A stretch of 64,000 nucleotides of DNA from Isoetes taiwanensis (taxonomy: Eukaryota; Streptophyta; Lycopodiopsida; Isoetales; Isoetaceae), in assembly GCA_021234155.1 (NCBI GenBank), contig JAJEKV010000005.1, forward strand, positions 10,720,572 to 10,784,571, given 5' to 3'. A program made the position numbers and the translations under genes. Under the pieces are notes generated by a model, which saw only the letters and a program-made list of their open reading frames with translations, searched no databases and was not told the DNA's origin. Below, piece after piece: positions 2,011 to 59,904 of the stretch (its first letter is position 1; each line of letters starts with the position of its first letter).

Positions 2011-2089
2011 AGGAGCTCTCTCTATTGCCTCTTTTCAGCTCTCTCAATCGAATCTTCACCAGGTGGCAGGCCATAAATATTGCACCTCA

Positions 2090-3507: not shown

Positions 3508-3639
3508 GGCATGCTTCTGTCACCTAAGTTCTAGGCCATTAACAATTGTAGCGCTAGAAAAAAAAAAAACAAATCACAACCATTGGAAAAAATGGATGGC
3601 CACGCCCTTTTTGGAATTTCAAAATTGAAACCAGACAAC

Positions 3640-8750: not shown

Positions 8751-8756
8751 TTGTAT

Positions 8757-8983: not shown

Positions 8984-9057
8984 TATACATAAAGAAAATG
9001 GTTCATGTTAGATATTCATCACATATGTTCGTTCCCTGCACAATTCCCATTTTCAAG

Positions 9058-23682: not shown

Positions 23683-23795
23683 GATGTAAGCAATGTCAGA
23701 ATCCTCCATCTTCTTCTAAACTATGGCAACCATATGATGATAGTTCACATGGCCATGTTAACAAATGCGATACATTAGGGCGGATTTGGGGTCTG

Positions 23796-24420
23796 AAAAT
23801 GGCCTCCTATCAGCCATTCCACGTCATATTTCCGCTCCCTTTTTCCCATGCCACCTAGGATACCAAACTCTCATAATTACAGATTTGCTTGGAATATTCT
23901 TCCGGAATAAGGGGGATTGCACATTCATGGCGCCATATGTATTTAATTCTGTTGGTTGTCAGACGGACTGATGCAACACGTGGCGCTTCTAAAATGCCAC
24001 TTGCATTATAGCATACCGGCAACTCATGACGGTGTCTCTTGGTAAGTTGGCGTCCACCGCCTTCTACATTTCAAAAGTTGAATGTGTAGGTTGAAGCTTT
24101 GTATCGGATCGGACTTTCATTTCGAGGGCTGCGGCTGCGTTTCTTTAACCGATCTTCACTTCATCCTAATACAAGCTTCCGCCCCTACAATTCCAAATTT
24201 GAATTTGCTTAATGTATAAAAGCATGGATTGTAGGAGAATGGACTTTTCGATTTCCATATGCACGTTGCAAATTTCAAAAAAACGGTTAGTACGGACGCT
24301 CGGCTCACACGAAGTTTAATTGTGTTGGGGCATAAAAATACCACACCTTGATTTTTCGCGGCGTGCGATCTACACAGTATGGAAGTTGCTTGTTGTCAAA
24401 TTAAACTTAAACACAAGTGA
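23796..24420. repeat. Left-end repeat of giant element, copy 1
   Basis: AAAATGGCCTCCTATCAGCC and later blocks (GATTTGCTTGGAATATTCT, GGCGCCATATGTATTTAATT, GCATACCGGCAACTCATGAC, AAGCATGGATTGTAGGAGAA) recur in the same order at 25,771-26,400. Confidence 0.9.
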
Positions 24421-24576
24421 GGTCGGCACTTCACGTGGTTTTTTTCGAGGAGGGTTTGGAGTTTTTTTTAAATCCCAATTATCGACATAGTGTGACGTAG
24501 CATCTTGGTATTAAATAGTATGTTAAATTCAATTATATCGGTGTTCATGTTCTGGTTAAACTCAAATCATATAGGT

Positions 24577-24684
24577 TTAGGAATAAGGTTAAAAAAGGAA
24601 GATATTGGCTATTTAGGAATAAGGTTAAAAAAGGAAGATATTGGATATTTAGGTATAAGGTTAAAAAGGAAGATATTAGATATG
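24577..24684. repeat. Tandem repeat, period 36 bp, three units
   Basis: Units of TTAGGAATAAGGTTAAAAAA then GGAAGATATTGG.TAT; the third unit lacks one A. Confidence 0.9.
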
Positions 24685-24871
24685 GCTCAAATTTTCGAGA
24701 TATGCACATAATGGCATGTAATGATGGTTGATAGGACTGGAATACTTAATCATTCCTACGATTTTCACGCCTAATCCAGCCTATATCTATTCCACCCTAG
24801 ATTGGCCCATTCTCCCCCAATCTCCGCCCAATCTTTGCTAGATCCTCCGCCCAATTTTCTAGTCCATCGCC

Positions 24872-25293
24872 ATGAAGAGATCAGCTACTGGAAGAGCAGG
24901 AGGTGTCCTCCAAGAGGCTTCTATTACGGCTGGAAGAGGTGTTCCCTCCCAGTTCCCTCCGCACGCCCACGGTTCTTTTCTGCGAATGCCTCGATTCCTC
25001 GATTCCTTTGACGAGGAATCGAGAATGAGGAATCGAGGAAATTTCGAGCGAGGAGTTCATCATGTGTGTTCTTGAAGGTCGGATAGGAGATTCTTCAGAA
25101 AATGAGTATTGGTCTAACCGGCGGAGAAGAAGCCAAGATGATGAAGAAGATGAAGAAGTTGAAGACGAATCTGCTGACTTCGAGGAGCTCATGGCGTTAG
25201 TTCATGGTACATGCATGTTTTCTTTCTTTTCTTAAGCATTCAACTAACGGTTATTTCTTATTTTTTTTTGCAGATGATGAAGCAGATGAATGA
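24872..25293 (+). pseudogene. Small two-exon acidic-tail cargo gene, frameshifted
   Basis: Begins MKRSATGRAGGVLQEASITA at 24872 and reads about 65 residues to a frameshift near 25,060. In the next frame it continues EGRIGDSSENEYWSNRRRR, then an acidic run DDEEDEEVEDESADFEEL. A donor (GTTCATG then GTACATG) at about 25,205 and an acceptor (TTTTTTTGCAG) ending at 25,273 join to ATGATGAAGCAGATGAATGA, giving HDDEADE and stop. The splice phase fits. No family recognised. It lies between the two left-end repeat copies of the giant element. Confidence 0.5.
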
Positions 25294-25770
25294 AATTTGT
25301 TAGGGCAGAGCACCTCTTATTTTTTTTTCCTTGTTCTTAGTCGAGCTTGCCTCCAGCTTCTTACCATATGACTGCAAGCCTCCGGGCTTTTTTGTTGTGA
25401 ATAGTTGAAGCCTCCGGGCATTTAAATTTACAAAATGATGTAAAGCCATACTGACCATAAAAATTTTGAATGTAAAAAGTTTTTGCTTCTAATTCCATTT
25501 GAATACCTAACTTTTTTTTTACTGTACATGTGTTATCACTCTTAAGTACATAAGTCATCATCCCTTTTCAAAGAGCATATTATTTTTCAAGGATCACACC
25601 AAGTTTAATAGTACATATGCAACAAAAATGGAACACACTAAATTAAAGATCGCGGTGATCCACTTTCTTATTTGTTGTCAAATTAAAACTAAACACAAGT
25701 CCTTCGTCAATAGTCTCCCATTTGCATATAAAATATCTATCATTCCAAGTTATATTATGTTTTATGAACT
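25294..25770. other. Unassigned DNA inside the giant element
   Basis: AT-rich; contains TTGTTGTCAAATTAAAACTA, matching a similar stretch at 24,390, so it is partly duplicated material. Confidence 0.45.
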
Positions 25771-26400
25771 AAAATGGCCTCCTATCGGCCATTCCACGCC
25801 ATATTTCCGCTTTTTTTTTCCCGGCCGATTTGCTTGGAATATTCTCCTAATAAGGGGAATCGTGATATCTATGGCGCCATATGTATTTAATTCTCTTGTT
25901 GTCGACATTGATTGACGCAACACGGCGCTTCTAAAAGCCACTTGCATTATAGCATACCGGCAACTCATGACGGTGTCTCTTGGTTTGTCGATACCAATCA
26001 TGCGCATCACCGATTCTTGTCTTGCCCTATTTTCATTTAGAGTCCATTCCCGCCTTCTACATTTCAAAATTTGAATGTGTAGGTTGAAGCTTTGTATTAG
26101 ACTTTTCGTTTCGAGGAGGGCCAGGATTGCGCTCTTTAAAAGTTCGTGAATAGGGATCTTTACTTCATCCCAATACAAAGCTTCCCCCCCCTACAATTTA
26201 ATTTTTGAATTTGCTTTTGTATAAAAGCATGGATTGTAGGAGAATGGACTTTTCCATATGCACGCTTAAAATTTCAAAAACGAGGTTAGTAATGGACCGA
26301 GTCTCAAACGGCTTAATTGTGCCGGGCATACAAATTGTACACATTCATTTCAAGGCCGCGGCGATCCACGCGGTATGGAAGCTCCAAATGATGTGTGGAT
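25771..26400. repeat. Left-end repeat of giant element, copy 2
   Basis: Second copy of the 23.8-24.4 kb sequence, lacking the outer TIR bases (it starts at AAAATGGCCTCCTATCGGCC). It carries several indels and extra sequence near 25,990-26,050. Confidence 0.9.
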
Positions 26401-26809
26401 AAGGATCCAACCGACTTCGTGAATATGCTCCAGTCTTCAATCGCAAAAAAAAGAGGTCTAAAAATAAGAACTTAGACTCGACATGTTGCGCCTTTGCGTG
26501 CTCAAAAAGTATCGACATCCGGGCGGATGGCGGTTTATATCCATTGGATCCGTTGAGTGGCGTGAAACCGCCATTTCGGGACGTTTCAAGTTTAGTCCGA
26601 TTTTGTGGTGACGGTAACTCGGGCCTCTTGGGATATTGTGAGAGATTGAGAGAGGATGAAGGCATTCTGGAATCAATACGTTCCTTGAGATGAGCCGCCT
26701 CGATTGTCACAAGAGAATTATAACTTAAACCAGCAGCTCTTTTTTTCTCTCGCTTCATTACTCCACCGTGATGAAGGAAAGGAATGACGGCTTGGGAGGG
26801 AAACTTCTT

Positions 26810-28960
26810 TGAGATAATGGCGGAGAAGTCCAAATTGGTGATAGGGCAGCCGCAAGAAAAGATCCAAGAGCTCGAAAAGAGCAAACTTTGGGCTTCAATG
26901 TAGGTTAAAGAATTTGAAGAAAACACCCCTTGGCTTTATGGCGAGAAAGGAAGAAGCATTATCTAATCGATAGAGGAACCGAAGTTTGATCAGGTGCATT
27001 CAGACGTTGTGGTCACGCCACAAGGTCCGCTTTTACAACACTAGCAAAGGCCGCTTAAGATCCGGGGAAACTAGAAGCAATCTTGGTTACGTGAGTGAAG
27101 AACCTAGCTTACCTAACAGGGAGATAGTGGACATGATTTGTCAGCCCTACAACTCTCCTCTCAAGAAGATGGTATTGGAAATGGTACTAGGGGAGATCTA
27201 CAAGAAGTTAGAAGTTTACGTGATGTACGATCGCTTGTGATGATGTAGGCATCAAGAGGCTTGGTTACCGTTCTCTATTCAAGCCATTCCACCTAAGCGT
27301 TGAAAAGAATGGGCACAAAAAGTATTCGCTCCACGTCCACAAATTGTCGAGAATACAAGGGTTACTAGGACAAAGATGGTGTATGCCATATTAGGAGAGA
27401 TGCACCACGTTGAATGTGCTGGTCCTGCCATAGCCATAAAAGATAAGAATGGCAAGGATTGTTGTGATATAGTTGGAATGAATGAACGCAATAATCTTTG
27501 GGTTGACCTGGTTACTCTCTTACAATTCCTTGTCAAATATTATGACTTAACAGTTGCAGAAACTAATGGTGAGATTGAAGTTTGCATAAAATTGGATGAA
27601 ATGGAACTGACCAAGTTTGAGAAGTATGAGAGGGTATCCGTTGTCATCATGAATAGAGCAATTGAGAATGCAATTGCACATGCTAAATCAAAGAGCAACA
27701 AGAATAACAAAAAAGATGTAGAGGTGACGACGAGGAGAAGAAGAAGCGGCGGAAAAATGGTTCTCATGTCAATCAAGATGACACCCGGTGGTTAGGTCTC
27801 TTTAAAGTTCGTAAAGAAACCCACGAGGTTTTGAAATGGGTGTTCAATCAAACCGACATCCCGAAGTCTAATATCTAGATTCGAGGGAGGGGAAAATTGC
27901 AAGTAGATCACTATGGATCTTACAAAGTAATTTTTCACTTGGCGCCCTGATTTAAAAACCGAGAAAGCAATGTACAACATAAGTGGAGGAGGACAAGGAA
28001 CATGCAAAAGTTGTCCAGACCGCAATCATGCAAGGAAGTCAAGCATCGGGAAGATCTGTTTCAACCTTGTCCCTTAACCAAGCAAATGCTCCTAATAGAG
28101 GAGAAGAAGATCCCAAGTTCCATGGCATTTTCCCCATTCCATTAGAGAGGGTTCATATCCGCACTTTGCACGTTTTTGTGAGAATCATCGACAAGATGAT
28201 ATTTTTGAGCTGCAGATTCGCGGTGGAACATTTCGCACAAGAAGAGAAGAGAGGAAGGAATCGTGAGAGTTGAACATGTTCTATCGAATGTGTTTGCATG
28301 GTGGCAATGTAAGATTAGAGCTCGATGAGAAACGGGCGGTGAAGAACAAGTGTGCCTCAGAAGGTGTCAATTGAGGGATGAAAGCTCGACGCTTCATAAA
28401 GAATCATAGAGAGGCTCGAACGGAAACCGATGGGAGAAAAGGTCTATGAATTTGAAAATTGCTGGTTGATGCGAGCAGACCGCATGATGATGCTCGCTCG
28501 GCATTGAGGAAAAAAGCATGGGATGCATTGTCCGAATTGTTCCCATACATTCGTGAGAATGGACCTCACAAGAGAAGATGCGAAAATGTTAAGTGCAAGC
28601 GTTTAATAACAAATTTATTAAAGCTTTCATAGACGATGGGGAGAGAGTGAAGTCACGACTACTTGCACATCTTTTGGGCTCATGCACCTTGGTTTTTAGG
28701 AAGTATGGAAGCCTAGCAAAGTGTGGAGTGCACAAGGCATGGAGAAGTCGATAAACAAGCTAAAATAGCCTTTCATCGTAACACTCAAAGAGGGGTGGAA
28801 ATGTGGGAACCAACCCTCTAAGACAGATGACGAGTGGTTTTATAGAAGGGCGATGGCTAAATACGACAAGAAGGTCGCTTTTAAGGAGCAACCCAGTAAG
28901 TCGTGAAACACCATTGGCATAATGTCAAGAGAAAACGGAAAGTTGCTTGGCAAAATTCTA
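26810..28960 (+). pseudogene. Transposase-like gene of the giant element, decayed
   Basis: Consecutive plus-strand open segments in changing frames. 26,986-27,240 has SKGRLRSGETRSNLGY and SPLKKMVLEMVLGEIYKKL. 27,376-27,795 has NNLWVDLVTLLQFLVKYYDL, GEIEVCIKLDEMELTKFEKY and ERVSVVIMNRAIEN. About 27,760-27,880 has TRWLGLFKVRKETHEVLKWV. 27,890-28,040 has HLAPDLKTEKAMYNISGGGQ then GTCKSCP. 28,130-28,270 has IPLERVHIRTLHVF and IIDKMIFL. 28,620-28,800 has LVFRKYGSLAKCGVHKAW. The order and the small Cys-containing GTCKSCP box resemble a DDE-type transposase family known mainly from animals and some early plants, as I remember it. I cannot name the superfamily. At least six frameshifts or stops. Confidence 0.5.
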
Positions 28961-29039
28961 GGCCCCACTAGCATCGCAACAAAGGGAGATCTAAGAGACA
29001 AAGAATCGGTAAAAGTATACTTGTAATGTGTAGCATGTT

Positions 29040-29172
29040 CACACGACGCCGGGTACTTGCCTCCAACCTTGTTTGCACAACAGTAGCTTCGGCCGTCGGT
29101 GATCTTATTTTATCATACGGGCGAACAGTGGAGTTCGCTATTGCTTGCATTTATGTGGCTTCGCGTCGTGTG
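29040..29172. repeat. CACACGACGC inverted pair, 113-bp loop
   Basis: CACACGACGC at 29040-29049 and GCGTCGTGTG at 29163-29172, with TT/AA extending each arm by one or two bases. Confidence 0.8.
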
Positions 29173-29558
29173 AAGCTTTACAAGATAATAATAAAAAAGG
29201 GTTACTTTTGATTAAAGTTGTGAAAGATGTTACATTGAAAAACAAAATACAACGACTCATTGTTGCTCCAAAGGCGAGCTCTTCTTCATTATCTTCATCA
29301 TCATCATCAGCTCCGGCGTCCTCGCCTTTCGCCTTCATCTCTTCCCTCAAGCGCAGCAATCACCCTATCCAAACGTTCCTCCAATCTGGTCCACCATCTC
29401 TTTGTACATGTCCCGCCTCCCCGTCCCAATAGCACAACGTGTTCTTTCTGCCTGAATTAGCATCCTCGTTGCCGCCATAACCACCTCGGTGCAGCTTGTT
29501 GGGGCATGTCATCCCGGTCAAACCTTCTATTCAACCGTACTGATTTGCCTCTCCACGG

Positions 29559-29816
29559 CTACTTAAGCATGAGAAGGTTGAATTCATTCTCTTCTTCTTT
29601 TCGCTGAATTGTAACGGCGTTTTCCTTTAGAAGATCATCTTGCTCCTTCAACCTCTTCATTAGAACACCCAACACTATGTCGGAAGGGAGTTCTATCCTC
29701 TTGCGTTTTTCCATTATCAGCGGTTGAGGATGTGGAGGCCATAGATGACAAATGGGAGGGACGTTAAGATTATAGAAGTGAGGAGCAAAGACTCTAACCG
29801 GGCGGAAGGAGCACAT
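29559..29816 (-). CDS. Small coiled-coil cargo protein, paralogue 1
   Basis: 85-codon frame. The likely functional core begins at the internal Met of MEKRKRIELPSDIVLGVLMK, continuing RLKEQDDLLKENAVTIQRKE, which is a basic start followed by a heptad-like coiled coil. The signature DI.L.V.MKR.KE is shared with the genes at 32,341-32,604 and 31,420-31,671. The frame runs on toward 29,200, where acidic residues (DDDDEDNEEE) occur in another frame. Function unknown; no enzyme motif. Reading may be truncated by a frameshift. Confidence 0.45.
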   Translation of the reverse strand: MCSFRPVRVFAPHFYNLNVPPICHLWPPHPQPLIMEKRKRIELPSDIVLGVLMKRLKEQDDLLKENAVTIQRKEEENEFNLLMLK

Positions 29817-30179
29817 GCAAGGACCTCAATTTATACATATTAGCGCTTTGAACATATTAAACACACTCACTGCCGCCGACGACGTGTCGGGGATTCTCGC
29901 GGGTTGTCCGCTAGAACACATTAATGGTACCGTCACCGGAACACATTAATAACTATTCTAACTACATCAGATATCACACCACGCTGAATCGCGACACGAA
30001 GCTTTAAAACCCTATGAAGGGTTTCGCCAGGTGATCTCGCCTTGTCATTCTCTACCACGGATATTGAAAATTAAAAATAGGAAACGTAATATTCGGTACA
30101 TTTGTCAAAAACTTTTCCCATTGAAAAATAAAACCAATTACAAACATTAAAAAACGGGCCCCTCTAGGAGGAGCCCGAT

Positions 30180-30700
30180 GCCTATGATCGCCGGGCAAGC
30201 TCTTCCCGGAGGGCGGTGATAATTTTTTTCGCTTCCTCCAACATGATTGCCCGCCCGCAACCACGTTCTCATATTCCGCAACCTTATCTTCCCGCCATCG
30301 AAGTTGGGCTCGGCGCCTCCTCCCGCTTCGGGATTAGGCCCTAAGCCTCTCTTGAGGTTATATCTCGCGGGCGGCGCAATGGGCTGGTCTAAGGCAGCCC
30401 GGCCGATTGTCGCAAGACTAAAATCACCTCCTCAGAAGGCGGCCTTTTTCCTCCGCCGCAACCAGCTTGGCGACGCCTTCATCATTCTTTTTCTTTTTAG
30501 AAGGCGGATCCGCTCTCCTTGCCGAATGTTTCAATTTCCTTGACCAAAACTTGAGACAAGATCTCTAAGTAGGGATGGAACCGAGCCGGAGGCCATTGAA
30601 AGTGATGGGAGAACAGGAGTGATGGCCGAGGGCGGATGTGGTAGAACAGAAGATGGCGGATAGGAGAAGACAAAGGCCTCCCGACGTTTTATATAGAAAC
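30180..30700 (-). pseudogene. Small cargo gene, paralogue-like, frameshifted
   Basis: Minus strand. A TATA-like TATATAAAAC at about 30,690 is followed by ATG at about 30,594 encoding MASGSVPSLLRDLVSSFGQG. After several frame changes the 3' end reads MLEEAKKIITALREELARRS and stop at about 30,180, a helical Glu/Lys/Arg-rich tail. Promoter spacing and coiled-coil end resemble the neighbouring paralogues. Family unknown. Confidence 0.4.
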
Positions 30701-31209
30701 TAGAGATACGTTGGAATCTACGGTTGCGACTCACCGATAAAGTTGTGTAATAATCCCACGAGGCTAAATTATAGCATTCAATTAGGCAACGGTAGCCTAT
30801 GTTCGCATCATGGGATCCGGCCATATCCCAGCCGCACTATATGTGCCGCATAAAAAAAAGATGTTGTTATTGTGGCAAACAAGATGCCACGCCCTTGGCA
30901 TGACGTTGTCATCCACAAGCCCACGATGTGAATAGACGTTGTCATCCACATGCAAATTCACAAGATTTACCCGCAAGTTATATCACATAATCTAGCTAGA
31001 TATTTGTGTTACATACACTTTTCCATTAATAAATTATGAATTTATACATACAACGAGGTGTGCGCTGGAGATCATAATGACGCGAAATCCATTGATTGCT
31101 ACCTAATTGCAAGAATGGCATTTCAAGCGTCGTGGTGATCTTTTAATAAAACAAAACAAGAGAACAGATAGAAGCAAGAAATAGAGCAAATTTTTCTTTG
31201 AAACAAAAA

Positions 31210-31671
31210 ATATATATACAATGGCTACGGATCTTCATGATCCCCAGAAGTCGGCCGAAAGTGCGTTCTCATCCTCCCGGCTTCGAAGCTTCTTCTCCAT
31301 ATCTTCTAGTCGCGAAATGTTGTGTGCAATTAAAACCGCCTAACCCTACTGGGCTATTGGCCTCTCGGCACACGGGTTAATGTTGTCATGAGCTCAAGGT
31401 CTCGCCATGCGGCTGACCCCTAGTGAATTCTAACTCGCCCTAATCCGCCATCCATCTTCTGGCCATCTAGACGGTACATTTCGCTCGGAACCTCCTTGAA
31501 TCTCTTCATCACCACACAAAGAAGGGTGATGTCCGGCGGCAGCTTCGGGGCGCTGGCCGCTGTCCGAGGAGGATGAAGATGCCATCGGAGGAGAAGGCGG
31601 AAGGCTGAAGGCGGAAGGAGAGAAGATGAGCGTAAGAAGAAGGCGGAAGAGGATCGGAGGTCGGAAGGCAA
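31210..31671 (-). pseudogene. Small coiled-coil cargo protein, paralogue 2
   Basis: The open frame 31,671-31,420 begins MPSDLRSSSAFFLRSS and reaches PDITLLCVVMKRFKEV, the family signature, before divergence. Further 3' (to about 31,250) the shared C-terminal LEDMEKKLRSREDENAL is readable in another frame. A TATAAATAGA box (reverse complement of TCTATTTATA at 31,684-31,693) sits just upstream, as in paralogue 3. Function unknown; degenerate. Confidence 0.5.
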
Positions 31672-32139
31672 GATAGAAAGTCTTCTATTTATAACAGGGA
31701 TTTCAGAGTAGCTTGAGTCACACGACGCCGAAGGATGCCGTGGGTCGAAAATCGACCGATTACTTTCGGCCGCGGTGAGGAAAAGGACCGTATTACTTCT
31801 TCTAACGTCTTTTCTTCCGTGAGAAAGCTCGGTGATAATTTTTATTGATAATTTCTATTGATACAATCTATACATAAGTAATTTTACTTGATACATAACT
31901 AAAGATAGAACTTCTCATTGAAGCAAAATAGAACGGCATGGAGATCCCACGCGAAATCCATTGATTGCTACCTAATTGCAAGCAAGGCATTTCGCGCCGT
32001 GGTGATATTTTAATAAAACGTAACATACATTGGAACAATGGGATAGATAGAAGCAAAAATAGAGAAAACTTTTCTTTTGAAGCAAAAAATAGATAGATAC
32101 AACGGCTAGGGATCTTCATGATCCTCTAGCTGATTTTCA

Positions 32140-32604
32140 TGTCCCGCGGTTTAAAGTCGTAAACAGCGTTCTCATCCTCCCGCCTTTCGGAGCTTCTTCT
32201 CCATATCTTCTAAGGCTGCTTGAAATCATGTGAGCGGTTTCAACCGCCTCGGCCCGCTGCTCGTCGCCTCTTGGTACATGGCGAATGTTTCCACGAAGCT
32301 CAACGCCTCTTCGCGGCAAAGCGGCTTCCCCTCGTGAAGGTTAATCGCCGACCGCCTCATTGTTCTCGGCGACGAGGCGGTTGTTTTCATCATGGATCTC
32401 CTTGAATCTCTTCATCACCACCGCAAGGGTGATGTCCACGCAGCTCGGGGCCGGGAGTGCTATCTTGGCGTGGTCGCTTGCTAGAGGAAGATGATGGTGC
32501 CATCGGAGCGAGAAGGTGGAAGGCGGCCAGGAAGTAGAAGATGAGCGTAGGAAGGCGTCGGAGGTCGGCGTGGACATCGGTCTTCTATTTATAACATGAG
32601 TCAC
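32140..32604 (-). pseudogene. Small coiled-coil cargo protein, paralogue 3 (best preserved)
   Basis: The frame 32,604-32,341 reads from a Ser/Pro-rich start (MSTPTSDAFLRSSSTSW) to VDITLAVVMKRFKEIHDENN then RLVAENNEAVGD, a heptad-like coiled coil, and stops at 32,341. 3' of this, another frame gives FAMYQEATSSGPRRLK and LEDMEKKLRKAGG, matching paralogue 2. The TATA box TATAAATAGA is at about 32,583-32,592 on the minus strand, and a CACACGACGC copy lies about 75 bases further upstream. No known family recognised. Confidence 0.5.
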
Positions 32605-33297
32605 ACTGGCGGAATAAATAAATTAATTGTCTTTTTCCAATAATATTTCATTTCTTCGAGATAGGTATCACACGACGCGAAAACCTAGATATGACGTAAA
32701 AAATCGACCGATGTATTTCAAGTGATGTGAATAAATACAAATAAAATAATTTTTATTAGGAATTTCGAAGGACAATCAGTACATAAATAATTTTACCGAT
32801 ACAAGTTGGAAAACATATAACTTCCAATTTCTCAAGCTTCGTCGTCAATTTCATGCTCTTTCAATCCCCTCAAGACCGATCCAACAAGGCAATGACTTCC
32901 ATGTTATCGACCCCAAATTTTCCAACCTTGGGTGAGTCAAGCCCGCCAGCTAAAAAATTTAACATATTGCTGCCCCAAGCACCCGCTTGGTCGTCAAAAT
33001 ATTGTAACACGACATCCCAGAATTGCTATCACCCTTCGGTGTTTGATGCCAATTGGGAATGGTTCCCTAACATGCATAATGCACTGAGGTAATAGACAAA
33101 CTCTGCACCCTTTGACCGAAAGTTCTCGGCCGAAGACGATTATCTCCCCATTAACGAATCTTGAGATATATCTTAACAATGTAGAGTCCTTCAATCTTTC
33201 TCGTCCCCCCGTGCATGTCGGCAAGAAAAATCATCTACTTCCCACAAATAAGAACCCTCAAGATTATCTTCTTCACATTTATCCTCATCTACCGGGC

Positions 33298-34440
33298 TTA
33301 TCTTTGCCGCTGATTGATCAAGGGCACGCCAAACCCAGATCCTGTTGGCGACTTTGCGGAGATTTGGAATTCTTCTTCCGTTGGTAGATTCGCCTCATCT
33401 TGAGCAAATCGAGACTCCAGCCTCTCATATGCTTCTTTAAGCTTTATAGCATTGCTTGGGATAATTAGATACTTCAAACATCTCTTTGTCCAAATCCTCT
33501 TCAAAATCTAGGCCTAAGTTTACCCATTCGCCAAGGTAACCGATAAGCTCGTCTTCCCTAGCACACATTAAGTAACATAGACGGGTTCCTCAAGATATCA
33601 CTTAGCAATAAGTATTCTTTGCCTTCCACTAAAATTGGCGTTATGTCGGACAACTTCTTTTCATCCTCATCCCCATCCTCATCACCTTCGAGAATCATCT
33701 CCCTCCTCCGGTTCACCCAAGGCGGTCGGCCGAAGCTAAAACTCCTACATTCTTGCTCTTCTTCTTGTAGATCTATCTCCATTTCTACGCCATAGTCAGC
33801 ATCATCACACATAACTGACCCCCTTGGCTTAAAGATTTCATTGTTTCCGGTGTATCTTCTGGGTTTGGCCGAAGCGAGAATGCAATAACTAGCAAATGCA
33901 AGCGGCAAAGAGAAATAAGATACCTTCTTAAGCACAAGGACGAGCGGCGGGGAGGAGCCCGTTAGCGGCATTCTTGAAAAACATCTTCCCTGTTTGCAAA
34001 TGGGAAGCCGCCTCCTCTAGAGCTGGTTTTGGAATCCACGAGCCGGGACATCGCAAAGGGCGTCTTGGCCGAGACCAAGCTTGCCTCAGGTGAAAGCTAA
34101 AGCAACCTCGCGATAGCATCCAAGCTCGCCATTGTTTGCCATGATGTCCAACTCCTTGCAATAGAACGGATAAATCGCAATCGGCAAGAACTTCCTCGTT
34201 GTCATGAGGGGCGGATGCATACCATTCCGTGAACTTCACATAACAATCCATGGCGAAAACGCACGAAAAACAAGAAGATGTTTAGGAGCGGTAAAGCTAC
34301 CATCACTTTTGAACTCAAGTAGCCGTTGTCGATTATGAAAGGGGACACGTACCGTTGTTGGGGAGATTTGTCCGTACATTTTAGGGTTAGGGTTAGGGTT
34401 AGGGTTGGATCACACGACGCGAAGACTACTATGTGCAACA
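33298..34440 (-). pseudogene. Unidentified cargo gene, fragments in several frames
   Basis: Minus-strand segments: 34,251-33,928 (MDCYVKFTEWYASAPHDNEE, VLADCDLSVLLQGVGHHGKQ); 33,971-33,558 (KKVSYFSLPLAFASYCILAS, then acidic VEMEIDLQEEEQE and DEDGDEDEKKLSDITPIL, ending LLLSDILRNPSMLLNVC); and 33,504-33,298 (AIKLKEAYERLESRFAQDEA). They are consecutive and probably one gene interrupted by frameshifts or introns. I recognise no domain. It lies between the paralogue cluster and the H3-like gene. Confidence 0.4.
34378..34408 (+). repeat. Short TTAGGG array
   Basis: About four consecutive AGGGTT units (TTAGGG phase) immediately next to a CACACGACGC hairpin. The common plant telomere repeat is TTTAGGG, so this 6-base phase is notable but the array is very short. 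Confidence 0.85.
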
Positions 34441-34477
34441 AAAAAGCACAATGCTTTGTGGCGGCGTCGTGTGATCC
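34407..34477. repeat. CACACGACGC hairpin, 71 bp
   Basis: GGATCACACGACGC at 34407-34420 pairs perfectly with GCGTCGTGTGATCC at 34464-34477. The 43-base loop is unrelated to that of the hairpin at 36,580. Confidence 0.9.
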
Positions 34478-34639
34478 TCACGTATAACATTAAAAAAAAA
34501 AATGCAAAAAGTGCGGCTAGGCTTCTAAGAAAGAAATGGACTAAGAGATTAAGCTTATAAAGCCATTGCATTAAGAAATATTATACATATGAAAAAAAAC
34601 ACAAAGGCACTTCACGGCCTTTTTAGGGGGTCTTTCTTC

Positions 34640-35471
34640 TTGTTGTATTCAGCCATAAAATTTTGACCATAGTATTTTCGGGATCCCTTATCGTAAGACG
34701 AGGCGCATGTCCTTGGGCATAAGGGTCACCGCTTGGCATGTATTGTCGCAAGGCTGCGAGTCCTCGAACAGACCGACACCAAGCGCTTCGAAGCCATTTG
34801 AAGAGCATTTAAGGCGATTTGCTTGAATGCCATGCTTGGTATGATGTATCGCACCACACTCTTGCAGAATCTCTCTCACGAGCACGGCAAATGGGAGGCG
34901 GAATGACCATCTCGGTGCTCTTCCCGATACTTCTTAATCTGAAGCTTTTAATACCAGGCCGTCTTTCCGCTTAGGCCTCTACCCTCACCCACCCGGCATT
35001 TGGAGCACATTTGCTCGGCCGACTTCTTAGGCGCCTCCTCACCCCAAAGATCTGCAGGCCGTTTTCCTCGGCCGACTCTTCCGCCGCCTCCTCACATTCC
35101 CTTGGTCGCCTTCCCCTTTCTCGGCGTTGGGCCTCCTCCTCGATTTGAAGGTTCCGCACCTCCACGGGAGGAACAGGAGGAGCAGGAAGAGCAAGAAGAG
35201 GCGGCTGCCCAATAATTAATCCGGCATCATATTACGCGCCACGGTCTCTCACATTTTCATCCCTCGTCTCCGAACAGGAGTGCACCTCCCTACTTACTCG
35301 AGGTTGCTTCTCCCGTGATGCGTCATGCGGATTTCTTTTTCCGGTCTTACGTTAGGCATGGTGGGAGGAGGAGAATCTCTATCGAGACTTGAGTCGATGA
35401 AGAAGCGGACTAATGTAATCACCGGCCTTACACCACGGATGGATCCTTGCGGTTTGCTTAGTTCTTGCCAT
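34640..35471 (-). pseudogene. Long-tailed histone H3-like gene inside the giant element
   Basis: ATG at 35471 encodes MARTKQTAR, identical to the first nine residues of histone H3, followed by IHPWCKAGDY before the frame breaks. A tail region follows with RPEKEIRMTHHGRSN and, at 35,165-34,971, a charged stretch (QIEEEAQRRERGRRPRECEE). Fold remnants are then read in alternating frames: KLQIKKYRE (the LREIRRYQ position), LVREILQECG (LVREIAQDF), VGLFEDS (VGLFEDTN) and VTLMPKDMRL (VTIMPKDIQL) ending about 34,690. All of these are in H3 order at roughly H3 spacing. Distance from tail start to fold implies a tail of about 180 residues instead of about 40. Multiple frameshifts mean it is now non-functional. 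It sits among the minus-strand cargo genes, so it was probably carried by the element. Confidence 0.8.
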
Positions 35472-35498
35472 GGCTTCTCGTGGGATGACGCTTTTATA

Positions 35499-35871
35499 CT
35501 ACTTAACACCGACAAAAATAGACAACTCAAGGAGATAAATAGTAAAAAGCGAAGTTAAAGTAAAATATGATGGTAACGTTTTTAAATAATTGTGCGGAAC
35601 CCTAAAAAAATATCGGACAAAAATACGGAACCCTAAAAACATCGACAAAAACACAAATAAAAACCGAGATTCAAAGCTAGCCGATAGACAATTTCTTGTT
35701 GATCGCGAACTCACTAAACTTTACATTTCCCTCTTGCTCGTAACCAACCCTAATGCCATCAATAAAATAATGGAAGTCGTCCGCAATTTCCTCTCTCTCC
35801 ATTAGCACTCTTAGCTCGATAATGGCCATTCGCTTTCCATGGTGGCGATAAATGACTTCCTCCCTCTCCAT
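35499..35871 (-). other. Open frames upstream of the H3-like gene, unrecognised
   Basis: 35,871-35,677 encodes GKRMAIIELRVLMEREEIAD then DFHYFIDGIRVGYEQEGNVK, plausible as protein but of unknown family. It is followed by an AT-rich stretch that would serve as H3-like promoter/leader. Confidence 0.3.
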
Positions 35872-36023
35872 ACTCGAATATCCACCGACGGAGTGTCTAT
35901 TATGGTCCTCAAACGGCTCCCAAAAAGTTGTGCACCTCTCTTTTTTGTTTCCTTCGTTCTAGTTGACAATTAACGATAAATATTGTTTTGGAAGAAAGTA
36001 TCCGAACTTAAAGGAGGACTTAA

Positions 36024-36260
36024 CTACGCGGACCTCGTTAGTTGACCGGATGATTCGTGGAATCGAACATCCCGTGTCGGAACCAAAAATAAGCCATCCA
36101 CAAAATCTAAGGGGGAGAAAGCACGATATGTCTTGAGCTTTTCGAACTTCTGCGCCATCCGGAATATGTTAGCAAATACCTCAAGCGGTGTGAAGATTTT
36201 GAAACTCATCCTCACGCCTCGTTTTCGGACATTCCCGCTTGCACCTCGTCGACCATGCAT
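36024..36260 (-). other. Open frame of 78 codons, unrecognised cargo
   Basis: MHGRRGASGNVRKRGVRMSF then KIFTPLEVFANIFRMAQKFE and FVDGLFLVPTRDVRFHES. Basic N-terminus, hydrophobic middle; looks like part of a real but unknown protein on the same strand as the other cargo. Confidence 0.35.
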
Positions 36261-36579
36261 TTCTTCATTGCAATTACATTGTTCTCATTAGTGCGTGGCT
36301 TTACAAAGTTCACTTAAAGGGGCAATTCAACCGGCCTCAAGCTCTCGGTTTCCGACCTTTACGTTATAATCATGTCCGTAAAACCGGATGCCTATACCCC
36401 GCAAGGTCACGGCATCCATACCTTGGAAAAGGACAATTCCGATGTCTATGTGATACACGACACAAGTACACTACTAATACTTTCGGTAGGAATGACATCC
36501 ACGACGTCGATAAACATAAACTGCACAATAAATTTGTTTGTAAACACGTGTCAACGAAAAGAAATGAAAAGATAAAGAA

Positions 36580-36651
36580 GATCACACGACGCGAAACTAT
36601 CTCTACGCAGTTAAGTAGGCTGACTGACTAGCTTCAAGGCGTCGTGTGATC
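36580..36651. repeat. CACACGACGC hairpin, 72 bp
   Basis: GATCACACGACGC at 36580-36592 pairs with GCGTCGTGTGATC at 36639-36651. Arms match the 34,407 hairpin; the loop does not. Confidence 0.9.
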
Positions 36652-36659
36652 CGTTTAAG

Positions 36660-37306
36660 GTGGTTACCATTTGCGGGCAATTTTGGGAAAATTGTTTTTG
36701 GTGGAGATTAGCTCTTTGGCCATATCGGAAGGGGTATATGCATGTCGTATTGTTATACTTTCCACTTTCCGGCCGCTAAAATTCAACTTGAACTCTTTTA
36801 TCCTACCTATCCAATGTGTCCAAGACGTCGATCGCCTTTGTCGCTAACTCTATGCTCCCCTCGTTGATGGCGCATACTCACCTGAACCTATTGAGACAAA
36901 ACCTCCCACTTCTTGACCTTGGGAGTTTACGTAAATGGGGCAAGAACACGTAAAATTACAGGAGACATGGATTGCGGATGAGGAGTGAAGGAGAGAGGAT
37001 GCACGTAGAGGCGCCGGAGTGACAGTACAGAAGTTTGGCGCCAAAATTTGACAAGGGAGTTGGTGACGCTGACAGTAGGCGGTCAAAGTCACCATTATTT
37101 TGGGCGGCGAAGCGACTCCCAAAAAATACGGGCCATTAAAATGGTTGCAATAAAAGCGCAGGCATCCCCTATGAAAATACGCCATGTGGATGCCAAGTAA
37201 GCCTGCTCATCCTTCTACCTGCCAAGTAATACTGACTTTCGTAAAAAAGGCGCAAACCTGATTGGTCCTGGCGAATCTGACGTGGAAATCTTTAGCCCAA
37301 GATAAG
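36660..37306. other. Right subterminal region of the giant element
   Basis: A minus-strand phrase SIELATKAIDVLDTLDR (about 36,850-36,800) suggests a last cargo exon remnant. The final 120 bases hold GCCAAGTAA twice and a CCACGTCA-type subterminal motif near 37,277. Confidence 0.4.
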
Positions 37307-37338
37307 GGCCATTTTCAGACCCCAAATCCGCCCTAATG

Positions 37339-39560: not shown

Positions 39561-40646
39561 GTACAATTGTATGGTTCAATACTCTTTTGGCATCTGGTTG
39601 CCAACATCATTTTGCTAACATGGTCTTTAATGCTTTTGTTATTGCGACCGAGCTTTATCAACGGTTTGTATATCGTAATCCCGATACCAAAATTTCGCCC
39701 GGCCGAGCCGATTCGAGTATCCGAAAACCTGATTGCATAAGGAAATTGAAGGAGAGAAACACATGTTCTTTGTGTCAAACATGAGCAAGCAGATCTGCAT
39801 GTAAAGGCCTTCAATGATATGAGGAGATCCCTACACGTTAATTGCACTTGCTGCTGCAGTGTCTGTGCATGCCAGCAAAACAATGGAGTATGTCAAGCAA
39901 ACAAGAAGACTTTTGATAATGTTAGTATCTTGTGGAGGTCAACAGTTTGCGAGAAATATGTGACGGATGAATGGCATAAACTAAAATGCATCAAAGGTGA
40001 ATGTGATGAATGTGGAGTGAAGAAATTAGACATTTGTCCAAATGAGGAAGATGGAATTCAGAATGTCGACTGGCAAGTATATGCATATGTCAATGAGCCA
40101 TCCAAAAAAGGTACATCCAGAAGGCTTAGATTAGTTGATAAGAATGACAAAGCATCTGTTTTGTTAAAGAACATGAAAATTCAGCTTGCTAAGTTTACAG
40201 ATCATAACTTTACAGCACACTGGCAGAGCAAACAGTTTAAAAGATGTGTTGAGAAACTCCCGGATAATAGTGTGTTGTCTGTTGTTGACTTTGCAGAGAA
40301 CTACACATTGAAACCAGGGACAGAAGTGCAATCCGAGCATTGGAATCCTGATCAAATTAGTATTTTGGTCCATATTTCAATGATGAAAATAGAAGGTAAG
40401 CTTAAAAAAACAGTGCATTTCTATGTTTCAGATGACAGGAAGCATGACACTCATTTTGTGCAACATGGTTTTAAATTACATTTGGGGTGGCTTAAGAATA
40501 ATAGAGGTGGACACGTAAACCTTCACTATGTGTGGTCGGATGCTTGTGCATCTCAATTCAAATCTGCACGGGCATGGTATGGAATTTGTAGATACCATGT
40601 TGAAAATAAAATTCGAGTGATATGGAATTTCTTTGGATCTGGCCAT

Positions 40647-41653
40647 ATCTGTCTCGAGTTTGTGTCCCCAATGTGGAGGTCTGCTCAACTGAACAAAGGG
40701 GTACCTACAGAATTAAACCTTTTAAGCTTTTGGGATACCAAAGATAAGGTGGAGAATACCATGAGATCACTGAGCTGCTGGGCTATTTGGCTTCATAGAA
40801 ACAGAGTGGTCATTAATAAACATCCCCCTTCAAACATATGGCTTAAGAGAACCTTTGTGGATCTCATTCAAATTACTGCCATAGCCCATAAAATGTTAAA
40901 AGGGAAGAAGTATGATCCAGCATGGAACACACTGGGGAAATTTTATGGGTTATATGATTTTTACTTAACCAATCTAACAATTTCAGATGATGTCTTGCAC
41001 AGATGCGCAGAGGAGACTCAATAGAGTGGGGAGCATGGATCGGGCAATGGGTACAGCAGCAAATTCGGATGACGAGGAGTCCCAATTGTCCAAGGCCGAG
41101 TTGGAGGAAAGGTTTGTCCAGCTCAAGCAAGAGGTGATTCACGCTAAGGCCATCAAGAAAGTTCTGAAACGGGCAGAAGTATGGAGGTTTAACAGCCTTA
41201 AACCACATTTCACCAATCTCTTTCATAAGTGGCAGCAGAAGAGAGAAGCTCATGTATTGCTTCTCCTAGACTTCACTAATTATCAGATCTGTGTACTGGA
41301 TACCCTCCTCACTATTCTGGGTAATCGAACAGTAGCTGACCTTACAGTTCAAGATTTAGTGGATAATGAGTGAAGTGGGAAACAGATCTCTGGAAAACTC
41401 TACCAGTCCAAACAGTTACTTTATTTTGTTTAAACTATTTATATGTTTGGCTGTTTTAGTATGGTTCATGGATCCGTTCTATAAGGACCATGTTTCCAAA
41501 TTTTGCATCATGATTCCCTTAGTTAAGGATCATGACCTCTGGATTGTTATTATCTTTCTCTTTTTGGGTATATCTCCTATGATATACCAACTGCTGATGT
41601 ATCTTTTCTAGATGCAATATAAAACCAACCTTGCCATCCAAAAAAAAAAAAAA
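40647..41653 (+). mobile_element. LINE 3' fragment inserted in the transposase gene
   Basis: Open-frame continuation with a LINE C-terminal style sequence (LLSFWDTKDKVENTMRSL, CWAIWLHRNRVVINK), then a second frame (EERFVQLKQEVIHAKAIKKV). A T-rich 3' UTR and a terminal A14 tract (about 41,640-41,653) follow. Transposase homology stops at the left edge (FFGSGH) and resumes right after the A-tract (GTHDGE), so this is an insertion. No clear target duplication, suggesting a deletion at the 5' junction. Confidence 0.75.
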
Positions 41654-42627: not shown

Positions 42628-45516
42628 TTCCAGAAATATTATAAAAATTTGTTAAGTGTAAGTTGATTAGAATTGAACATAAGAAAGTTGAATGGCATAA
42701 ACATTAAAAATAGTTTCAGTCATGGCAAAGATAAGAAATGGACAGGTTTTCATGTACAAATGGTTGATATATTTATATTGTGGACATAAATACAACACAC
42801 CCGAAAATGAGCATGGCTCATAATTCATGACCAAGCTTCAAAATGTCAGTAGGAGCCTGATATCTTATGACTATTGCATCATGTCTTCCAGCCCGCCAAG
42901 AGGCTGAAGAGATATCCTCTAAAGCAGTAGTCCATGCGGTTTCTATAGCACGTGCCACTGGCAAACCTTTCCATCCTACATGGCCTGCATCTTCCAGGAC
43001 ACGTGCCTTCCCCCAAGGGTTGTGCAACAATTGATTTGCTGCCAATATACATTTCATGGTTGCTCGTTCCTCATAATTTTCAATATGCTCAACCTTTTCC
43101 CAAAGTCCGAGAACAAGCAAAGAAGATAGAGGGCGATAATCGGTCCCCAACCCTATGTACTTGCAGCTTGTGTTGGTTTGTATTACCTCTGGGTGCAGCA
43201 GAACTCTATCTCTTAGTTTCTTAATAATCTTTTGTGTTTCAGTCCATTCATCTACAAAGCAAATGAAGATCACACACTCATAATTTTACCAATAAGAAAG
43301 ATAAAAACAGAGTACTCAAGTGCAATGAACAAAAACTTTGATACATATATTCATAACATTTGAATTTGTACATCAGTCAAAGTCTGTACCAACAATGGGC
43401 TAGTCGAGAGGCCAATAACATGATGGCAGTTTCTCCATTCCTTGCTCCATATATTGACTAAATTTAGGCAGCAGAGCACCCAAGTTGCTGCCATAGTTTG
43501 CCAGCAAAATCTGTTCCACCTGCTCTGATATGCTATCTGCTGCATTAGTCATTGGATGCTCTTTCACATAAACTATACCATCTTCAGCCATTTTGAATCC
43601 ATTAAGCCATGGAATGAGCTCCATGACAAGCAATCTGTCGCCAGCTAATATCGGTGTCCAAGAGAAAGGACATATGTAGCTTCCTACAGGATTCAGAGTG
43701 GATTTGTATCTTTCGTCGTCGATCAGAACTGTATTTCCATAGTATTCTGGGTACTCTTTCCACACCACAGCTAACGGCTTCACAAACAACCCCTTTTGAG
43801 GTTCAGTAGGGTGTTTGTGTGGCAGAGTCCAACACTGCTCCTGGCTGTAAACCACTTCAGCTTCATGGAAAAAGCATCACAAATATGATCCACAATTGGT
43901 TGAAGATTTTTAGAAGTGAGTGAAGACCAGATGGCAACATCAAACCCTTCTCTTACAAATGCTAACAGTGATGCTAACCCTGGCCTGCAGTAAAAAAACC
44001 TGTTTCCTATATTGAATTGAAGCTCATCTTTCTGTATCTGTTGGTATCTTGAGTTAATATTTTCATTCTTGTGCACACTCTTGCCCAACACAGAATTTAA
44101 GTCAAAGATAATGAGCTTTCTCCCTGAGTTAGATGATTCACCTGTCAGCAACAAAACACTTGAGAGTCTATTCACAATTTATAATTACATTTCAGATCAC
44201 ACAATTGTGAAAACACATTGATAATTACACAATTGTTATTTGCACAGATGTAAGTGAGACAAAAAAAAACATTTTTTCATTATTTATTGAGTACAAAGAA
44301 GCTCGGAGCATGGCTCATACAAAACTGTAATTTACAAACAAGTTAAAGAGACTATCTACCCTGTGTAGGAACAACTGCTTGTATATTCATCTCGCCTTCT
44401 ACAATTAATGCCTCCATTAGATGATCCCTCCGTGACTTGGCATAGGCATCAGTGAACCAACTGGGTGTCATCTGCATGGTGCACAAGTATTAGAGGACTA
44501 TACCAACAAATAACTAATAGGAAAATAACATGTTCTACTTACAAAAATGGAGCTTGGCTGTGCATCAACAATGGCATCTATGAATTTGTGCATGTAAGCC
44601 ACAATGTACATGCAGGTTGCTGGTACTAGTTTCTGGCATTTTAGGACAGAAGATAGGAGCATCAAAGTTCTTCCTACCATGGCTTAAGCTGTTAGATCCG
44701 AGCATCATGTTATTGATCACAAGCTTATGAAACCTGCAAAATTGCAATGTGAGAATAAACAAAGCATAAGAAATTGCAATATGAGAATAATCAAATCATA
44801 AAAAACAAAACAGAAACTCATACTTACTTCTGGACCACTTTAGCATCGGGTACATAGCCTTTAACAGGAGAGAGGATCTGTATACTTGGGCTAGCTATAG
44901 ATGGAAAAGAGCTTTTCACTGGACCAGCAAGCACAAGTATTGTCAATGCCACATTTGGGCCTTCACTACAAGAGTATAGTCATTTTTCATCACTTTAATA
45001 TCACCTAAATCTTCAAAAAATATCAAATGATATAATTAATGATATTCAAGGTATGATGACACTACCAATGACGAGATTCTATCATCAATATCATCATCAG
45101 CATCGTCATAAATATAGTCAACAATTATATCAGTACTAATTAATGACAATATATGTGTTACTAATAGCATCATGAATAATATCACATATTACGTCAACTT
45201 TACCATCATTTATTACTCGAATGGTGTTAATGACAGTATAAGTGTTAGAACTTATGCCAGTTACAATATCACCTATAGTCTCATTTATACTATCACATAC
45301 TGACAATATTATATCAATAATAACATATGACGGTATATGTGTTGATAATAACATCATGGATAATATCACGACTTACATCACTATTACTATCAATGCTTGT
45401 TGTAATTTTGGTAATGATAATATAGGCGTTAATGCTTATGACAATTCTAAAATCAATTTTCAAACCCCGTAGATAAAGTACAAAATAATAACAATAGAAC
45501 AAGAAAACAATTTCTA

Positions 45517-57189: not shown

Positions 57190-58212
57190 TGTGACGTTCC
57201 AGGGGAATATATGCCATAAATATGTATATTCCTGGAACCGTCACTATACAAGTCTACCTTTGTAGCCTTGTATACCTTAGAAAGTGGTAATGGGTGCATA
57301 TCTAAGTTAAATGCTTAACTTAGATAATCTTAGGATAAGGCCCATTTCCACATGGCCTTATTCTATTGGGCAAACTGCCACACGGCCCCACCTCATTGGT
57401 GCCACGTGGCATCCCATGTGGACCCCAACCTATATTGGCCCAAACCCTAACCCTAGACCTCTTTCCCTGACCCTAGCACCTGAACACTCATCTACGCGCT
57501 CGAAACTCCGTTTCGAGCATCGTTCGTCGTAGCATAGCCTGGTATAGCAGCCCCCGAAGTGTGTGCATGATCTTGGAGGGAGCACGGCTTCGACCATGTC
57601 AAGGAGCATGGAGACGCCGGGACTAGGAGGGAGTGCTTCTGGAGCAGGTAGGTGGAGTAGAGTTCATAGTAGTTCATCTGGAAGTTAGCACTCCAGATGG
57701 GTTTGTATGTTGTATCTTGAGTAGAGCCATCCTAGAATCTTGTTGAACATCTTGAACCCTAATCAAGGAACCCTAACTGTAAGTTAGATATGTACGGATG
57801 GAGTGGTCAACCCTAGCCATTGTCTATAGCTAGCCCCGCCATTGTTATGACTCAGTCTGCTCTATCTTGAGGCATATCCAGTCAGTCTACCTCCCCATGA
57901 GTCGGAGCCACGGGTAGGAGCTCTCATGTTTTATGGCATATGATTATCTTCTTTGCAGTTACGGTTATGTGGATGAGCTACCCTTCGAGGTAGTATGATG
58001 TATTATTATTGCTAGTTCTAACGATGTTTATGCTTTCGCTGTGATAGGAGCCCTAGGGGACGGGCGCACAAGACACCTTCATGTCCCCTTCCCACACTAC
58101 GGTGATCCCAGAGTGCGGGATAGACGGAGGGCCCGTGCGGTCGAAGGACCGGATGGGGGATTTCCTACGAAGTGTACAGCTGGGAGCCGTATATTTAGTA
58201 GGGAGCGTCACA
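57190..58212 (+). mobile_element. LTR of a retrotransposon
   Basis: A 1023-bp unit beginning TGTGACG and ending CGTCACA (inverted 7-bp ends with TG...CA), immediately followed by a primer-binding site. The first 55 bases form a near-perfect hairpin (GTGACGTTCCAGG ... CCTGGAACCGTCAC). The 3' LTR is not in the window or has been lost. Confidence 0.8.
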
Positions 58213-58213
58213 A

Positions 58214-58225
58214 TGGTATCAGAGC
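58214..58225 (+). promoter_or_regulatory. Primer-binding site for initiator Met-tRNA
   Basis: TGGTATCAGAGC two bases after the LTR end; the classic plant retrotransposon PBS. Downstream a gag-like start (ATGGAACCTCGAAAATAG at 58,316) is stopped after five codons. Confidence 0.9.
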
Positions 58226-58751: not shown

Positions 58752-59904
58752 ATGGCAAGAACCAAACAAACCTACAGGAAGTGCAGCCCAAGGCAAACCC
58801 CCTCGATGGCGACGGTAGCAGCCGGAGGTCATGGCAAGCAAATCCCGGAGCACCTGCGACCGAGGCCAGAGGAGGAGTCGTCGTCCTCGACTGGCGAGAC
58901 CTTCCACATCTCGCAGGAAGAGGCCCCCAGCAGCAGCAGCAGCTCTTCGTCGGGAGGTACCCAACAAACAGATGAGACCCGTCGAGGAGCACCAGGAGGG
59001 AGACCAAGAGGAGCAGCGGGAAGAGCAGCAGGAGGATCAGCAGCAGTAGCACCAGGCCCAGACCCAGTAGGCAGGCCCTTCTTCAATCAAGAAGAAGGGC
59101 AAGGAAAACGTGAAGGAGTGGCCAGAGGACAGGGTAGCACAGAAGAAAAGGGAGAGGGAGCTGAAGGAAAAGGAGAAGGAGAAGGAGAGGAGGACGAAGG
59201 CGAGAAGGGATAGGCCACGGGGCACAGTCACTATTGAAGAACCTCCCCCTCGTGAAGAGGCAGACGATGAAGAGGAGGAAGGAGATGGAGAGGAAGAGGA
59301 GGAGAATGCAGAGGAAGAGCAGGACGTTGGGGAACCCTCAGACCCCAACGCACGCCCACCCTACCCTAAGTGGCCCAAGCCACCTAAGGTAGTGAAAAAG
59401 CAGAAGATGGGCGAGCGTGAATTCGCGCTCAAGCAGGATCGCGAATTCAAACGCCGGATGAAGCTGTACCAGGAGTACCTCCGTCGATAGACGATGTATA
59501 ATGATTGGTACTGTAAGCAGAACGTGGAGAAGTTCGTCAAGGGAGGCAGGGCGAAGAACCAGCCAAAGCCACCGCCACCCAGGCCGGAGAAGCCAAAGAA
59601 GACCCATCACGGGCCAAACTCCCGGCACGCTCGGGTGTTTAGGGAGATTAGGCACTTTCAACAGTGCAATAATCTCCTAATAAGGAAGGCGCCATTCGAA
59701 CGCCTTCTTCGCGAAGTAATGCAGGAGTTCCGGACTGATTACAGGGTCACATCTCTAACCACCCGGGCCCTGCAAGAGGCATCAGAGGTAGAGCTAATCC
59801 AGCTCTTTGAGGAGGGAAACCTTTACGCCATCCACGCCAAGCGGGTAACTGTTATGCCCAAGGACCTGCATTTGGCGCGGAGGATCCGCAAAGAGAGGCC
59901 CTGA
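58752..59904 (+). pseudogene. Long-tailed histone H3-like gene
   Basis: Begins MARTKQTYRKCSPRQTP at 58752 (H3: MARTKQTARKST...). A long low-complexity tail follows: Ser, Glu and Gly/Arg-rich to about 59,060, then after a one-base frameshift KKKGKENVKEWPEDRVAQKK, a Lys/Glu helix and an acidic run. The in-frame TAG at 59488-59490 separates the rest: [18 protein letters not shown], then the full histone fold from [20 protein letters not shown] (H3 [20 protein letters not shown]) through [20 protein letters not shown] to [20 protein letters not shown] and KERP, ending at 59904. Fold length equals canonical H3, without the longer loop 1 of CENH3. Total would be about 380 residues against 136 for H3. 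One frameshift and one stop make it formally a pseudogene, unless recoding or an error is involved. Confidence 0.85.

Follow-up and report, generated by a model that had tools for sequence, protein, structure and literature searches.

The carriage of histone H3 genes by transposons is not new as such, since fungal hAT elements provide precedents (PMC3538342, PMC6710886). In Pyrenophora tritici-repentis, hAT elements carry H3-like genes (H3L) with tail insertions and reported transcripts (PMC3538342). They resemble the elements described below in being transposons with an H3-like ORF present in tens of copies. However, they are fungal DNA transposons with 26 nearly identical copies, for which their authors suspected drift (PMC3538342), whereas in Isoetes we are dealing with a plant LTR lineage that has diverged copies, apparent purifying selection and a conserved insert of 300 residues. 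In Pseudocercospora and its relatives, hundreds of H3 copies lie in a hAT element of about 9.5 kb with terminal inverted repeats (TIRs), all transposon copies of which are dead (PMC6710886). DNA viruses also encode histones (PMC9145170), and the bracovirus H4 is a parasite-encoded histone with an extended tail that is reported to join host nucleosomes (PMC9145170, PMC5423620), but these virus-encoded histones belong to DNA viruses (PMC9145170), unlike those of the Isoetes LTR elements; the main text of that review has no words starting with 'retro' or 'LTR'.

Acquired domains have been described in Gypsy elements of plants as well (PMC9289625; PMC7264820). An orchid Gypsy element with an m6A RNA demethylase ORF is likewise a plant Ty3/Gypsy element with an acquired, conserved host-type domain, although its cargo is an RNA demethylase and not a histone (PMC9289625). 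The chromoviruses of seedless plants have LTRs, the gag-PR-RT-RH-IN order and a chromodomain behind the integrase, as the Isoetes elements do, but the latter add an H3 module before gag, and the available text on seedless-plant chromoviruses mentions no H3 ORF (PMC3350952). Since transposon-borne H3, Gypsy elements with acquired domains and viral histones are already known, we place the present element type among the known accessory-ORF retrotransposons; what is new here is that the accessory ORF encodes a histone under selection. The word 'histone' is absent from the main text of the I. taiwanensis (PMC8566536) and I. sinensis genome papers and of a review from 2026 on how plant transposons capture genes, and our searches of the open-licence PMC literature found no retrotransposon with a histone ORF.

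The window, that is the whole stretch of 64,000 nucleotides of I. taiwanensis DNA analysed here, had been described in an earlier sequence-only reading as containing an H3-like gene inside a TIR element of about 13.6 kb. That element is real: its left (23773..23804, plus strand) and right (37307..37338, minus strand) TIRs are complementary at 32/32 nucleotides and span 13,566 bp end to end (23773..37338, no strand assigned). In the genome as searched (1,658,258,908 bases in 1110 pieces), the 32-nt TIR occurs 848 + 857 times with at most 3 mismatches, against 0 + 0 for a reversed-pattern control, and 15 +/- pairs spaced 13.2-13.8 kb apart were counted among 100 listed TIR places. The ends of the window element are 89-93% identical to those of other copies. 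Among known systems, the Pseudocercospora hAT element is its closest match; however, that element has a transposase, an 8-bp target site duplication (TSD) and RIP (PMC6710886), while no transposase was recognised in the Isoetes element (no Pfam match at E < 0.01 in the 7 TIR-internal frames scanned) and no TSD was seen by eye at the flanks of the window copy. The marks of the fungal hAT H3L family, a hAT transposase and an 8-bp TSD, are thus not found in the window copy, and translated and nhmmer searches of it found no gag, pol, LTR or leader.

Inside this element lies a broken H3-like gene on the minus strand (34691..35471). As had been read from the letters, the start MARTKQTAR is exact (35471-35445), and the motifs LVREI, VGLFED and VTLMPKDMRL follow in order in a single open frame (34933-34688). 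A translated search with an H3 query matched the core remnant (34933-34691; tblastn E 6e-9 in 64 kb), and so did a profile built from 20 element ORFs (E 1.9e-7). About nine residues into the tail the H3 frame breaks off, and no single frame holds the beginning of the tail, its end and the core. The gene starts at position 1868 from the TIR end (1.87 kb inside), and in the copy C270, which is 89% identical to the window element over about 5 kb, MARTKQTAR stands at 1869, the same internal position as anticipated. C270 departs from H3 after MARTKQTAR just as the window copy does, and its core is broken too.

When the best 40 of 628 candidates for the block at 33500-35520 were scored, all 40 covered at least 2018 of its 2021 bases, and the 39 matches other than the window itself showed 88-91% identity. 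H3 is a fixed, standard cargo of this high-copy TIR family, because the 40/40 scored matches are near full length. The position of the block was compared in five matches whose contigs also appear in the TIR list, which shows exact TIR matches only; three lie 1821-1841 bp from a listed TIR (1818 in the window), whereas the other two have no listed right-hand TIR, so that the expected constancy of position held as far as it could be followed. The H3 gene looks dead in both copies read, and from their common departure after MARTKQTAR it seems to have lost its function before the amplification, or some of it, took place. Directly behind it, the window has a hairpin-like inverted repeat at 34410-34490 (GGATCACACGACGC...GCGTCGTGTGATCC) that is MITE-like by eye.

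A second and better H3-like gene, absent from the sequence-only reading, lies at 58752-59904 on the plus strand of the window. It is preceded by the 3′ part of an LTR (57795..58212, plus strand, nhmmer), the 5′ LTR of an H3-bearing Ty3/Gypsy family whose LTR-leader profile matches 57795-58266 (nhmmer E 4e-47). The LTR ends in GGGAGCGTCACA (58201-58212) and is followed, after one base, by a primer-binding site (PBS; TGGTATCAGAGC, 58214..58225, plus strand) in the same place after the LTR as in full elements; we take it to be of the initiator tRNA-Met type. The gene begins with MARTKQTYRK and a long acidic and basic tail (58752..59490, plus strand) containing one frame change near 59071-59213 and one TAG at 59488, followed by an H3 fold (59491..59904, plus strand) that is open to the stop (tblastn E 2e-31 over 59515-59898; PF00125 E 1.1e-29). 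The best 150 of 10,036 candidate relatives of this core that were scored all have E <=1.2e-72. Compared with the relative L048, in which the tail and core that could be aligned are free of frame breaks, dN/dS is 0.15 in the tail (132 codons) and 0.04 in the core (133 codons), ratios that are near saturation because dS exceeds 1. Behind the gene, no gag-pol was found as far as the end of the window, nor a second LTR within the 4 kb that follow the window; the LTR end and PBS of a Ty3/Gypsy element are present ahead of the H3 ORF, but gag-pol and a 3′ LTR are not found, and the copy (57795-59904) appears truncated or internally changed. Its H3 tail is of a distinct type, yet it stands behind the same LTR and PBS as in full elements. 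Elsewhere in the window we observed a 424-aa open frame with a Cys-rich start (39750-41024, plus strand; no Pfam match at E < 0.05), perhaps part of another mobile element, and an exon resembling NLI-interacting-factor-like phosphatase (43780-44178, minus strand; PF03031 E 2e-8); Rfam gave 0 matches in the window.

Full elements of this kind were found elsewhere in the genome through a Pfam histone search in which the best 150 of 8705 candidates were scored. The top 8 matches read are ordinary H3 genes, and most others begin at profile position 9-25 and lie in open frames of up to 494 aa. We picked 20 loci of about 10 kb each by best H3 score and long frame. All 20 contain an ORF (ORF1) of 411-459 aa, counted from the chosen Met, in which about 300 novel residues are joined to a complete H3 fold; PF00125 was present in 4/4 ORF1 scanned (E 1e-41 in L027), and the closest solved chain is an H3.3 (7ux9_E, E 3.8e-49, residues 338-440). 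Among the 20 loci, an LTR was found upstream in 17, and ORF2 in 19, ORF3 in 16, gag in 17 and a protease in 17; L017 and L018 have no gag within the stretch read, and in L013, L022 and L027 the piece upstream of ORF1 is not LTR. Pieced together from the 20 loci, three of which were followed downstream (L020/L030, L012/L031 and L027/L029), the element order is LTR, PBS, leader, ORF1-H3, ORF2, ORF3, gag-PR-RT-RH-IN, chromodomain and LTR.

The LTR pair is 95.3% identical over 1600 bp in L020/L030, an element of about 11.3 kb by coordinates, and 90.7% over 1308 bp in L012/L031. The LTRs end in TGTGAC...GTCACA, i.e. TG...CA, and L020 has TGGTATCAGAGC after the LTR, the polypurine tract (PPT) AAGGAGGGGAGAA before the 3′ LTR and the TSD GTGACC, as read by eye in this one element. 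L027 has gag, with a zinc knuckle, and protease domains, L031 (behind L012) has RT, RNaseH and IN, with an rve match just under the Pfam cut-off, and L029 (behind L027) has a chromodomain (E 1.5e-10). With LTRs, PBS, PPT and TSD, and gag, pol and chromodomain all found, the H3-bearing elements outside the window are Ty3/Gypsy chromoviruses. A 3.8-kb direct repeat (91%) that is not its LTR flanks the L027 element (L027:1-3698 and L029:5762-9459), which was perhaps inserted inside another repeat. In L024, LTR and leader are present in direct duplicate (1490-3724 and 7273-9524, 95.5% identical), which represents either a truncated neighbour or a shortened element.

The H3 core of ORF1 is 83-89% identical to host H3, and 64/99 core positions equal it in 20/20 ORF1, while S86, S87, E105, T107 and the last residue differ from host H3 in all 20. 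The surface from Y/F41 to K64 is altered in places in 8/20 (R42K in 7; L60 is changed in 18), so that the exact nucleosome fit of ORF1 is in doubt. The protein begins like an H3, with K4 kept in 20/20 (in L025 counting from the first Met) in contexts such as MPRFK, METPK and MANTK, and MARTK in L028; then come the domain of about 300 residues, a stretch recalling K9-K14 and the full H3 fold. That stretch, P-x-T/V-x-G/A-K, precedes the core in 20/20 and was aligned by eye to K9-STGG-K14; it has a proline at the apparent K9 in all 20, in an alignment that has to bridge the large insert in the tail. By eye the K14-K37 stretch is shorter than in H3, which leaves the K27 region reduced or missing. 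ORF1 therefore has the H3 fold and lacks the canonical H3 tail with K4, K9 and K27; that tail lysines are missing could simply be a side effect of the insert. CENH3 has a longer loop 1, which argues against ORF1 being a CENH3, as the 99-residue core aligns gapless to host H3 in the columns compared.

Searches of 5.8 billion proteins returned only H3s as the best 120 of 4106 relatives of whole ORF1, and no relative of residues 1-310 at E 0.01 among 2401 candidates. For ORF2 (L027:5417-6775) the sole relative is P0121, on a 2953-bp ENA contig, with 44% identity over the full length. The C-terminal 110 residues of ORF2 recall H2A by eye (RxF..., AGH, RDLAIA), but the tests do not support this: hhalign of ORF2 with H2A, H2B, H3 and H4 found nothing, and its H2A score was lower than those of 99/100 column shuffles. 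A single-sequence model of P0121 has a helix-strand-long helix-strand-helix order in the matching part, at a mean pLDDT of 34.6, which makes the model worthless.

Selection was estimated as dN/dS by NG86, with medians over pairs and with pairs of dS <=0.03 or undefined left out. The median is 0.091 for the ORF1 N-domain and 0.040 for the H3 core (190 pairs each), the latter biased low because a high H3 score and an open frame were the grounds for choosing the loci, a choice in which the N-domain, ORF2 and ORF3 were not scored. The ORF1 linker gives 0.207, with 0.94 in one close pair on very few changes, ORF2 0.125 (21 pairs, 7 copies), ORF3 0.094 (28 pairs, 8 copies) and gag-pro, from gag to the RT start, 0.134 (6 pairs, 4 copies). 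These ratios argue that ORF1, ORF2 and ORF3 are under purifying selection like gag, and that the retrotransposon version of H3 carries the mark of selection for a working protein. The earlier suggestion that a transposon carries and employs its own H3 variant with an extended tail can be kept in its first half, as a plant transposable element does carry an enlarged-tail H3-like gene; its use by the TIR element is not supported, the frames being broken in both copies read. An element using its own H3 variant would fit the Ty3/Gypsy LTR retrotransposons of the same genome better, because their H3 fusion shows purifying selection.

The TIR family may even owe its H3 to these elements. Downstream of its H3 relic, in the same relative place as ORF2 in the LTR elements, there is a weak ORF2-like relic with the motif LxxITPILVEGKEYLLLSDIL (33561..33660, minus strand; ORF2 profile E 0.005 in the window and 0.0017 in C270, tblastn 0.009, nhmmer 0.015). 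At E values of 0.002-0.015 this motif points weakly to a retrotransposon source, and the DNA scores of the H3 relic (49 with host H3, at best 54 with LTR-borne H3, <=20 with shuffles) do not separate the two sources. The relic is perhaps dead cargo that was taken, together with ORF2, from such a retrotransposon.

Junctions of the LTR end with the PBS occur 2060 + 2103 = 4,163 times in the genome (<=2 mismatches; control 0). Among 8 junctions sampled without regard to H3, ORF1-H3 is present at 2 (L042 and L043), with broken frames in both; gag follows right after the leader at one (L040), a chromodomain end is found at one (L046), and 4 have no known ORF within 2.2 kb. From this sample, copies can do without the H3 module, and many of them are old. 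L040 (1-2200), with the same LTR end and PBS, then leader and gag, belongs to the lineage but has no H3 module. When the N-domain alone was used as the query (6668 candidates), 128 rows were obtained, and in at least 42 of them a frame of no fewer than 420 aa runs without a stop; the genome holds very many mobile-element copies with an enlarged-tail H3 gene. Such H3-bearing repeats risk passing for histone genes in annotation; as repeats with BLASTx matches to plant proteins were dropped from the published I. taiwanensis repeat library (PMC8566536), the elements may remain unmasked.

We think it quite possible, and tentatively prefer the view, that a Ty3/Gypsy chromodomain lineage of Isoetes captured H3 as an accessory ORF and thereby makes a chromatin histone of its own, which suggests mobile DNA bringing its own chromatin protein. 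An H3 gene was taken up by the element and became, in tail-split form, an accessory ORF between leader and gag. Starting from this capture and from the position, conservation and tail changes that we observe, we infer the following chromatin steps. The ORF1 protein would pair with host H4 and become part of nucleosomes, either on new cDNA or where copies of the element lie; with the K9 and K27 region missing or altered, these nucleosomes may resist the marks of transposon silencing. The large tail domain might retain the element's RNA, its cDNA or its integrase, while the chromodomain of the element could tell its own nucleosomes from those of the host, so that the encoded histone would resist K9 silencing or steer the chromodomain. 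The module would not be needed by all copies, as it was found at 2/8 junctions, broken in both, and L040 has no H3. In its fullest form, which we put forward with more reserve, these would be the first known retrotransposons encoding their own nucleosomal histone, K4-keeping, K9-less and K27-less with a 300-residue tail domain, which would be built into the chromatin of new copies and hinder silencing there while the chromodomain distinguishes own from host; this device would have been remodelled at least once, because two tail types stand behind one LTR lineage.

Somewhat unlikely, in our judgement, is that ORF1 is part of the particle, its H3 fold serving nucleic-acid compaction or nuclear import (like a nucleocapsid or an import adaptor) with no lasting nucleosome use. 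The place of ORF1 directly before gag in a conserved module and its gag-like selection would agree with this, as may the fact that a zinc knuckle gag of their own is still present in the elements. However, constraint is stronger on the H3 core than on gag (0.04 vs 0.13, the core being biased by locus choice), and 64/99 positions equal to host H3 in 20/20 seem to go beyond the needs of packing. It appears improbable that ORF1 acts host-wide as a competing H3, disturbing the H3/CENH3 pool or causing heterochromatin loss and so easing the expression of all transposons: very many copies could give a high dose, and the extended-tail H4 of a bracovirus changes host genes (PMC5423620), but host selection should act against a harmful protein made in such amounts. 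That the captured H3 pieces merely hitch-hike without function suits the TIR element, where the two copies read both have a broken H3, as well as the two broken H3-bearing junctions of the unselected sample and the mostly dead H3 copies of fungal hAT elements (PMC6710886). For the LTR elements this reading is very improbable because of the dN/dS ratios, which are far below 1 in ORF1, including 0.091 in the N-domain that was unused in locus choice, and 0.15 (tail) and 0.04 (core) in the second family; among 128 N-domain matches, moreover, at least 42 keep a frame of no fewer than 420 aa free of stops. A long-tailed host H3 variant multiplied by transposons is hardly credible, even with cores 83-89% identical to host H3, given an LTR upstream in 17/20 and gag downstream in 17/20, an N-domain without a relative in 5.8 billion proteins and LTR-PBS junctions in thousands.

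The host uses histones to mark and silence mobile DNA. If the captured-histone reading is true, the elements of Isoetes would offer a natural test of which tail residues are needed for silencing, and with its selected, tail-changed H3 this retrotransposon lineage would be striking back through the nucleosome itself.
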